From Geminocystis sp. NIES-3709 (GTDB taxonomy: Bacteria > Cyanobacteriota > Cyanobacteriia > Cyanobacteriales > Cyanobacteriaceae): 64,000 nucleotides of DNA. A model generated the notes under the pieces. It was not told the DNA's origin. It searched no databases and worked only from the letters and a program-made list of their open reading frames with translations. Shown piece by piece: positions 49,400-53,471 of this stretch (position 1 is its first letter; each line of letters begins with the position of its first letter). The DNA lies in the NCBI RefSeq assembly GCF_001548115.1, contig NZ_AP014821.1:3661262-3725261 (forward strand), in the 5' to 3' direction. A program made the position numbers and the translations under genes.

Positions 49400-50104
49400 T
49401 TAAAGACGCACTAAGATATTACTACCATGAGTATCAGTGCCACAAGTAGTGTATAAATTGTATTTTTTGGCCATACTTTTCACGATCGAAGTTTGATTTT
49501 TGCTAGGTTGCCAAGGGTTAGGATTAGTGTAGGCATAATAAGTTTCCACCCCATCTATTCCTAAACTATAGGCTTCGGTAATTAACTCTTCTGCACTACG
49601 ACGATAACGAGCAGGGTGTGCTAATACGACTAATCCTCCTGCTTGGTGGAGGGTTTTAATCACATTTTTTGCTTGAGCATCTTTCCCGACAGGAGCGTTT
49701 CCTGTTAAGTACTTTTGTAAATTATGGACTTCGGGATTAAATCCATAACCTAGTATATGAACATTAGTACCGTTTAATTCTGAGGTAATTTCAATACCTG
49801 TCCATAGATGAGGTAGCCCAGTATGATGATGAGATTTTTCACGGAGGTAATTTCTAGCTCGATCGAATCCTTTAACGCTATGATGATCAGTAATAGCGAA
49901 TCCTTGTAAACCGATAGATAGTGCTTGTTCTACTAATAATTCTGGGGTTAATTGTCCGTCAGAACAACTGGTGTGTAGATGAAAGTTGTAATTATGAGGG
50001 CAACTAAAATAGTTAATATTTTTCCATACTGCTCTTAATTTTATCGTATCTTGCTCCCGATCGTCACTGGATAAAGGACGAGTTTTTTTTGTTGTTAGTA
50101 GCAT
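49400..50104 (-). CDS. PHP-domain phosphoesterase
   Basis: The 234-residue protein has the PHP metal-binding motifs: FHLHTSCSDG, ITDHHSVKGF, a central GIEITSELNGTNVHILGYG, VLAHPARYRR and a C-terminal CGTDTHGS. It should hydrolyse phosphate esters with a trinuclear metal centre; relatives act on nucleotides such as 3'-phosphoadenosine 5'-phosphate or on pNPP. The exact substrate is unknown. Confidence 0.88.
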   Translation of the reverse strand: MLLTTKKTRPLSSDDREQDTIKLRAVWKNINYFSCPHNYNFHLHTSCSDGQLTPELLVEQALSIGLQGFAITDHHSVKGFDRARNYLREKSHHHTGLPHLWTGIEITSELNGTNVHILGYGFNPEVHNLQKYLTGNAPVGKDAQAKNVIKTLHQAGGLVVLAHPARYRRSAEELITEAYSLGIDGVETYYAYTNPNPWQPSKNQTSIVKSMAKKYNLYTTCGTDTHGSNILVRL

Positions 50105-50454
50105 ATTTTGCTCAACTATTGCGAACTGTTAACTTCAATGTAACAAAAATTTAGAGATCTTGACGGGTAAATCTTAAAAAAATCTTAAGAATTTTGTTAT
50201 GAGTGTAATATGCTTTCTTTATATAAGAAAAAATACTGAGACTTTCTTCAAAAGTATTCCCGTTAACATAGGTTATCAGGTATAGTTTTCCGTTAATTGA
50301 TTAGATAATTTCTAAAAAGTTTTACTCATATTTCATTGTCCAAAAATTTAGTTTTTGAACCAAATTCATCTAAAATTTGACCTCAGTTCGATGAAAAAAT
50401 ATTATCAAAAGGTTAGCGATCAGGTATTATTAAGTTAAATTTCTGGTCAACATT
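50105..50454. other. Spacer upstream of the PHP gene
   Basis: No gene is seen. The PHP promoter should be here on the minus strand. No clear terminator or box is assigned. The MITE-like element starts at 50455. Confidence 0.45.
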
Positions 50455-50653
50455 AGTAATTAACGGGACTTAAACTAAAAATATTAAACTATGAGTCTCA
50501 AATCGTTATAAATCAAAGATTTTACATAGATCGATAACTTTTCCTTTTATACCAAGAGTTTCAGCCGTTTTTATGACGTTTACCTAAATCTCTTACTCTG
50601 ACTGTATTTGAAGCTATTTTTGCACCAAAATTTTTCAAAGTACCGTTAATTAC
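50455..50653. mobile_element. MITE-like element sharing ends with the IS701-type element
   Basis: A 199-bp segment starts AGTAATTAACGGGACTT and ends AAGTACCGTTAATTACT, an inverted repeat with one mismatch in the first 17 bases. The same AGTAATTAACGGTACTT occurs at the left end of the IS701-family element (52108-52124). The segment has no ORF. It looks like a non-autonomous derivative. Confidence 0.6.
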
Positions 50654-50740
50654 TTATTCTTGAATTGAAAAAAAGCTAAAAGCTAATCCTTAACAGCTAA
50701 TTACTAACTCACGTTAAATTTTGACAGATCAATTCTTCAA

Positions 50741-52112: not shown

Positions 52113-53471
52113 TTAACGGTACTTAGACAAAACAATAACAACAATTAAGCTATAATTTTTACATCATATTGCTTTTAGGTCAAAATGAAAGAAATTACTT
52201 CTTCATCAATGCCCCCATGTTTCAATCGCTGGTGTGAAAAAATAGACCCAGTCTTAAAAACAAAGGCACAAAAACGAGAGTTTAGAAATTATTTGGGCGG
52301 TTTATTAGGAGATTCTCAAAGAAAAAATATAACTCAAATTGCCCATAATAATCTTGATATTACTTATCATAAATTACACCATTTCTTAACAGAGTCCACT
52401 TGGAATTATGATGAGGTAAATGATAAAAGATTAGAAATTATTGCATCCTGTCGTCAAACAAAAATTAGTCGATGTTTCTCCTTAATTATAGACGATTCAG
52501 GTCATCGTAAAAGTGGAAACTTTACTGACTGTGTGGGAAGACAATATATTGGTGAAATTGGCAAAACTGATAATGGTAATGTTATAGTCACTACTCACAT
52601 TTATGATGGTGTGAGAAGTTTTCCTTTAGACGTTGAATTATATGAAAAAGCCGAAAATTTCCCTGAAGGAAAAGACGCTCCACAATTTCAGAAAAAACCA
52701 GACATTGCCTTTAATTTAATTGAAAAATGTTTAAATCGAAATTATTGTCCCCAAATAATTTTAATGGATGGTGGTTATGGAAACAATACTAATTTATTAG
52801 GCAAACTAGAAAAAAAGAATTTAAAATATATAGGAATTATTGCTAAAAATAGATTAGTAAAATTGGTAAAACAAGATTTTATCGAGTCTGAAAAAACCAT
52901 AGCTGAAATAGCAAAATCATTACCCCAAGATAGTTTTGAAAAAATAAGAATAGGAAAAAATCGAGAAAAAACTCTTTGGGTAGCAACGATAAATATTGAA
53001 TTATCAGCTTTGTCGGGAATAAAAACTGTAGCTATCGTCATGAATGCAGATACTTTTGAAAATTCCACAGATATTGATTATTTAATGACTAATGAAATAG
53101 GAGAAAAAGTGTGTGGAAATTGGATAGTAGAAACTTATACACAAAGAAATTGGATAGAAGTATTTTACCGTGAAATCAAGGGATGGTTAGGGTTATCACA
53201 ATACCAAGTGAGAAATAAAAGAAGTTTAATGAGACATTTTATCTTGGTATTTTGTGCCTACACTTTTATTCAATGGCATCGTTTGACAGGAGGTTTAAGA
53301 AGACAATGGGGGAATAAACCGTTAAATACTTTTGCTGAGGCATTGGAAGCGTTTCGTAATGCTGTGTCTTTTCGCTTTTTTCAATGGTTAAAAGACAATG
53401 TGGAAGTATTTAGTTTATATAAAGCTAGTTTAGGGTTTATTTGGGCATAATTTTTGTCTAAGTACCGTTAA
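52113..53471 (+). mobile_element. IS701-family insertion sequence
   Basis: A 1359-bp element is bounded by perfect 20-bp inverted repeats TTAACGGTACTTAGACAAAA (52113-52132) and its reverse complement (53452-53471). The outermost TTAA may be the target duplication instead of terminal repeat. It carries one intact transposase gene, with about 70 bp at the left and 20 bp at the right outside it. It appears complete and recent. Confidence 0.88.
52185..53450 (+). CDS. IS701-family DDE transposase
   Basis: The 421-residue protein has the DDE acidic residues in SLIIDDSGHRKSG (Asp), ILMDGGYGNN (Asp) and NWIEVFYREIKGWLGLSQYQVR (Glu with the YREK-like motif). Family length is about 400 residues, and the frame is intact. 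It is likely active or recently active, since the terminal repeats are perfect. Confidence 0.92.
   Translation: MKEITSSSMPPCFNRWCEKIDPVLKTKAQKREFRNYLGGLLGDSQRKNITQIAHNNLDITYHKLHHFLTESTWNYDEVNDKRLEIIASCRQTKISRCFSLIIDDSGHRKSGNFTDCVGRQYIGEIGKTDNGNVIVTTHIYDGVRSFPLDVELYEKAENFPEGKDAPQFQKKPDIAFNLIEKCLNRNYCPQIILMDGGYGNNTNLLGKLEKKNLKYIGIIAKNRLVKLVKQDFIESEKTIAEIAKSLPQDSFEKIRIGKNREKTLWVATINIELSALSGIKTVAIVMNADTFENSTDIDYLMTNEIGEKVCGNWIVETYTQRNWIEVFYREIKGWLGLSQYQVRNKRSLMRHFILVFCAYTFIQWHRLTGGLRRQWGNKPLNTFAEALEAFRNAVSFRFFQWLKDNVEVFSLYKASLGFIWA

Follow-up and report, generated by a model that had tools for sequence, protein, structure and literature searches.

The window (the whole stretch of 64,000 nucleotides of Geminocystis sp. 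NIES-3709 that was analysed) contains a 182-bp MITE at positions 50464 to 50645, which an IS701-family transposase has probably mobilised in trans. We put the probability of this reading at roughly 0.85. The MITE is linked to IS701 because it shares the terminal sequence CGGKACTT with the elements of this family, because it is flanked by 4-bp duplications of the form NTAN and because identical copies occupy different sites. The original prediction, that the element could be mobilised by an IS701-type transposase, is well supported by these sequence comparisons. In the proposed mechanism, an IS701-family transposase made elsewhere would bind the CGGKACTT ends of the MITE, and the bound element would be moved or copied; its insertion at an NTAN sequence would duplicate 4 bp of the target. 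The ends, the duplications, the copy number, the identical copies, the paralogous empty sites and a split gene are observed directly.

Boundaries and genomic setting of the MITE

The MITE (forward strand) begins with CGGGACTT and finishes with AAGTACCG; its left end is CGGGACTTAAACTAAA and its right end, read as reverse complement, is CGGTACTTTGAAAAAT. The sequence TTAA is present on each side, at 50460 to 50463 and at 50646 to 50649, and represents the two copies of the target duplication. The element had been predicted at 50455 to 50653 with a length of 199 bp. It is indeed a real repeated element with inverted ends, but these limits are too wide and the TTAA duplication lies outside the MITE. 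The motifs AGTAA and TTACT, which had been included as its ends, belong to a surrounding repeat that is found uninterrupted elsewhere. This pair occurs in none of the 28 other copies of the MITE, and copy L012 displays TTACT on one side only. Since AGTAA and TTACT are sequences of the host repeat, the likeness between the AGTAA beside the MITE and the AGTAA at the left of the neighbouring insertion sequence (IS) is due to chance or to target similarity. The interior contains stops in all six frames, in agreement with the prediction of a non-coding element.

The MITE is localized in an intergenic gap downstream of nrtR, and no gene is visibly disrupted. The gap does adjoin the nadD/nrtR pair, as had been noted, but both genes are on the minus strand and the MITE is therefore downstream of them rather than before them. 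NadD scores above the cut-off of its model and the match of NrtR is below the cut-off of its own. On the other side, the MITE lies upstream of a minus-strand gene (49400 to 50104) that we take to be of PHP type, at about 360 bp from its start.

On the minus strand of 50464 to 50645, an open stretch of 24-25 amino acids (VN.IK.AETLGIKGKVI) is partly conserved across the MITE subfamilies. It bears some resemblance to a HAD-type motif. It matched a Nanoarchaeota record, probably by chance, and nothing in Pfam (5 fragments, limit E 10) or in the PDB sequences (1 fragment). For lack of a Pfam or PDB sequence match, the interior was dropped as a candidate for a captured gene piece.

Copies, target duplications and subfamilies

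The genome of NIES-3709 (4.43 Mb, 12 contigs) contains at least 29 near-full-length copies of the MITE, from the best 40 of 97 candidates that were scored. All statistics rest on these 29 copies, shorter pieces being left out. Both ends were located in the 29 copies, 23 of which are flanked by perfect 4-bp duplications (six are without). A central TA (NTAN) is present in all 58 flanking 4-mers, compared with a frequency of the TA dinucleotide of about 0.097 in sampled flanks (which include some IS sequence). The terminal octamers of the left and right ends agree at 8/8 positions in 17 copies and at 7/8 in 12. Seven copies, including that of the window, are identical over 182 bp with different bases outside, and six of the seven display perfect duplications (TTAG four times, TTAA and CTAT). 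Further identical sets consist of groups of three and two copies. The search for other copies, which had been proposed as a check of the 199-bp sequence, excludes a unique sequence devoid of target duplication. The element is thus short and non-coding, bounded by terminal inverted repeats and present at many sites with target duplications, as is a MITE.

The copies comprise a young type of 182 bp, another of 203 bp and older subfamilies, in which the identity within the genome falls to about 77%. The 203-bp subfamily (6 copies, L015-L020) carries a G+C-rich insert of 21 nt, GCCAAAGGCACGCAGAGCGCA. This insert was considered as a separate dispersed repeat and rejected, as it was found only in the six MITE copies when the genome was searched with up to 2 mismatches.

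No MITE match was found in the plasmids. Among the 60 genomes searched, matches were detected in six (own genome included), and near-full-length copies only in the genome of NIES-3709 and in G008, which belongs to the same family but to another genus (at most 13 matches scored in each genome). Both ends were recovered for three of the six or more copies of G008. These three share 94.0-95.6% identity with copy L022 of NIES-3709 and 86.3-88.5% with the window copy, and perfect 4-bp duplications flank two of them.

Insertion of the MITE in a host repeat

The MITE of the window interrupts a host repeat that extends from 50380 to about 50740 on the forward strand. Its left outer arm (ACCTCAGTTCGATG...) corresponds to 50380 to 50413. 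It is followed at 50414 to 50463 by the left part of an inner repeat of about 106 bp (TAGC...), whose last four bases are also the target duplication. Beyond the MITE, from 50650, the inner repeat continues to about 50707 and is followed by a degenerate right outer arm, which ends at 50740 beside the stop of nrtR, the right limit being approximate. Elsewhere in the genome, the host repeat is found uninterrupted in 10 copies, which carry the palindrome AGTAATTGATTACT or a near variant. At this position the window reads AGTAA-TTAA-MITE-TTAA-TTACT. As the empty repeats read AGTAATTGATTACT where the MITE stands, the window copy is, by this comparison, a MITE that entered a host repeat at its central palindrome. 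The uninterrupted repeats are paralogous empty sites and thereby bear, as do the copies and duplications, on whether the element has moved. An eleventh matching repeat is adjoined, in its 3' part, by a different copy of the MITE (L002). The target of the window is TTAA, against TTGA in the consensus of uninterrupted host repeats; either the target differed by one base from the consensus before the insertion or the change is common to both copies of the duplication.

These data bear on a reading of the 199-bp stretch as a static intergenic palindrome or a structured RNA, which would not be mobile. The inverted ends and the intergenic position are what such a sequence would display. However, the empty sites, a split gene and the numerous copies flanked by target duplications are at odds with it, no Rfam match at the gathering score was obtained for 4 loci, and the folding is no better than that of shuffled sequences (z of -0.51 and -0.47). 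We regard this reading as extremely improbable and as already refuted by the copies and their duplications.

The host repeat looks layered, with outer arms ACCTCAGTTCGATG.../...CTCAGGT around the inner stretch TAGC...GCTA of about 106 bp. Judging from the extent of the matches, the inner repeat seems also to occur alone. It was found in at least 39 other places in the genome (best 40 of 222 candidates scored). The composite host repeat, present in the window and at L160-L170, is abundant, and related outer ends are present in other genomes of the family. No orthologous empty site was available in the 4 congeners: in two of them a long distance separates the two gene blocks that flank the MITE here, and in the other two these blocks are on separate contigs.

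The IS701 element of the window

An insertion sequence of the IS701 family, hereafter type A, is found at 52117 to 53467 on the forward strand (1351 bp; terminal repeat CGGTACTTAGACAAAA). The complete element announced at 52113 to 53471 was correctly recognized as IS701-type, but its outer 4 bp are the TTAA target duplications (52113 to 52116 and 53468 to 53471). The transposase gene (52185 to 53450, forward strand) encodes 421 amino acids, and the protein matches the NCBIfam model NF033540 with 281.4 bits for a cut-off of 150, which places it in the IS701 family. In the genome, 16 open frames of type-A-like transposases are intact.

The analysis included 28 IS copies with both ends; L031, truncated at the end of a contig, was excluded. 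These copies comprise 15 type A, 12 type B and one (L047) with 94% identity. Among type A, 12 are identical, including the window copy, and three are at 0.999. Perfect duplications flank 23 of the 28 copies (five are without) and a central TA is found in 56 of 56 flanks. Copy L047 is interrupted by an insert of 89 bp, which is flanked by TA, has inverted ends of the AGCTAA..ACGCA type and resembles a small element of the mariner/IS630 type.

The transposase encoded at 52185 to 53450 is a likely trans-acting source for the MITE. The distance of 1.5 kb between the two elements, put forward in the original prediction, has little meaning in this respect, because the genome contains 16 intact IS copies and at least 29 copies of the MITE.

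Comparison of the MITE and IS701 ends

The MITE and the IS701 element have in common the terminal sequence CGG(T/G)ACTT (CGGKACTT), and they are alike in this octamer, in the 4-bp length of the duplication and in the NTAN target. Beyond the octamer the agreement is partial. Over 16 bases, the window MITE agrees with the type-A end at 13/16 positions on the left and 13/16 on the right, i.e. 3 differences on each side. Left ends of the MITE match the window IS at 13-15/16, and the right end matches any of the IS compared at 11-13/16. The left end of the oldest MITE subfamily agrees at 15/16 with type A and at 16/16 with the IS701 elements of two other genomes (G014 and G022). It is also identical over 21/21 bases to the left end of a 78%-identical IS701 element of G014 (L116). 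Of the first 25 bases at the left of type A, 22 agree with this subfamily. More generally, the left ends of the MITE fit the sequence CGG(T/G)ACTTAAACAAAA of other IS701 elements at 14-16/16. The claim that the ends match those of the nearby IS holds insofar as the inverted ends are similar to the left end of this IS and share CGGKACTT, but not for the whole end, since only 13/16 bases agree on each side and related IS701 elements provide a closer fit to the left end. The MITE therefore has the duplication length and the target of the IS, and a left terminal repeat that matches an IS701 element.

The right end of the MITE, CGGTACTTTGAAAAA, was found at 29 places in the genome with at most 1 mismatch. 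On contig 1, 26 of 27 occurrences are at MITE copies or pieces, and the remaining one (2913395) continues, by eye, as the right-end sequence of the MITE; the occurrences on contigs C5 and C12 are at the MITE copies L029 and L009. This right end was thus seen on no IS in the genome (at most 1 mismatch), nor on the IS ends of relatives that were compared. The genome also contains seven more distant IS701-like places. In the stretches fetched around six of them, where only the motif CGGNA(C/A)TT was sought, CGGNACTT is absent.

Origin of the MITE

The shared CGGKACTT ends, and the agreement of the oldest subfamily with the type-A left end at 22 of 25 bases, could suggest that the MITE derives from the window IS by internal deletion. 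The interior does not bear this out. The alignment of the interior with the IS, which had been proposed as a check, gave no convincing match past the ends when two MITE subfamilies were compared by blastn with type A, type B and eight IS loci. The best interior match (MITE 154-177 against L118 2711-2731, E 0.015) is in an A+T-rich stretch, and a tblastn search with the transposase against the MITE gave one hit at E 8.9. A derivation by deletion is thus unsupported and very unlikely.

We consider that the MITE probably arose with an IS701 lineage having CGGTACTTAAACAAAA ends and would now be served by the type-A enzyme, the second step being one that we infer. Since type A provides the only intact close transposase found in the genome, its enzyme is, on balance, the probable current driver of the MITE, although its action on the MITE ends, and at the present time, is deduced. 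A variant of the same mechanism would be that the MITE was driven by the CGGTACTTAAACAAAA-type lineage, now decayed, and that the type-A IS fails to recognize it. The left ends of the MITE are closer to CGG(T/G)ACTTAAACAAAA (14-16/16) than to the type-A end (13-15/16), and isolated ends of that kind were detected among the genome matches listed, two of them beside transposase pieces. Conversely, a recent movement is indicated by the seven MITE copies that are identical, six of which have clean duplications, whereas the relics seen of this lineage are fragments and type A has the only close transposase that is intact. We therefore hold this variant to be rather unlikely, and retain type A as the probable driver.

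Amplification of frame-broken type-B copies

All 12 type-B copies (L048-L059) share the same 1-nt insertion that breaks the frame of the transposase, and this insertion is absent from the 15 type-A copies and from L047. In the type-B copy L051, the extra base ends the first frame after 140 amino acids and the second frame comprises 321 amino acids. The type-B copies are 98.96-100% identical to L051 and eight of the 12 have perfect duplications. Given that these 12 near-identical copies have the frame break in common, with perfect duplications in 8/12, they seem to have spread in trans after the break. In the overlap of the two frames of L051, no homopolymer run longer than 4 was seen by eye, and programmed frameshifting is therefore unlikely. 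The amplification of type B supports, without proving it, the proposal that the intact type-A enzyme moves other elements. It is conceivable, and we advance it tentatively, that one IS701 transposase drives three classes of DNA: its own intact copies, the 12 full-length copies with a broken frame, and a MITE family whose asymmetric right end is present on no IS.

Genes split by other copies of the MITE

When the flanks of the copies were joined, open frames of 505, 665 and 378 amino acids were obtained across L004, L007 and L028, respectively; the frame is of 108 amino acids at L008 and of 0-89 amino acids at the other copies. L004 interrupts a protein of calcium-binding repeats (by eye) and L007 a PAS-domain protein (C-terminal side scanned). 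L028, a copy of an older subfamily, splits the gene of an ACR3 arsenite efflux transporter, the two sides of which match the model positions 1-143 and 146-327. In L028, the MITE and one copy of the duplication add 187 bp, which is not a multiple of three, and the continuity of the frame after removal is thus informative. In L004 and L007 the addition is of 186 bp, so that the continuity of the frame is uninformative.

Comparison with known systems

Among cyanobacterial MITEs, Nezha was reportedly presented in 2008 by Zhou et al. as active. In our limited search of the literature, focused on openly available articles outside ISfinder, no description of a MITE linked to IS701 was found. Members of the IS701 family are said to have repeats of 4 or 5 bp, with 4-9 bp for two of them from Geobacillus (PMC8024623); an IS701 element of Thermus is listed with the figure 4, apparently the length of the repeat (PMC6352166). 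A MITE has been linked to IS1182 in Paracoccus (PMC11578231). A close parallel comes from Microcystis, where a 187-nt MITE was assigned to ISL3 from its ends and the length of its duplication (PMC11448079). Both MITEs are cyanobacterial, of about 185 bp, present in about 30 copies and in some cases inside genes. However, the Microcystis MITE has 8-nt duplications and ISL3-type ends GGCTCTTCG, whereas that of the window has 4-bp NTAN duplications and IS701-type ends (PMC11448079).

With respect to the IS701 family itself, the MITE has the 4-bp NTAN duplications and the terminal CGGKACTT of the window IS, whose DDE transposase scores above the cut-off of the IS701 model of NCBIfam. It differs by the absence of a transposase gene and by a right end that is borne by no IS examined.

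Significance

The MITE is ordinary in kind, a new and well-supported example of a well-known genome parasite; less usual are its nesting inside another repeat and the amplification of IS copies with a broken frame. The analysis corrects the bounds of the element and attaches a MITE family to IS701 by its ends and its duplications. This family can split genes, as illustrated by the ACR3 arsenite transporter, the PAS-domain protein and the calcium-binding-repeat protein. The amplified IS copies with a broken frame constitute a natural test of the action of a transposase in trans. If a single enzyme does act on the three classes of DNA, it would be the MITE, and not the IS, that evolved an end of its own, and the abundant small host repeats would serve as landing sites.
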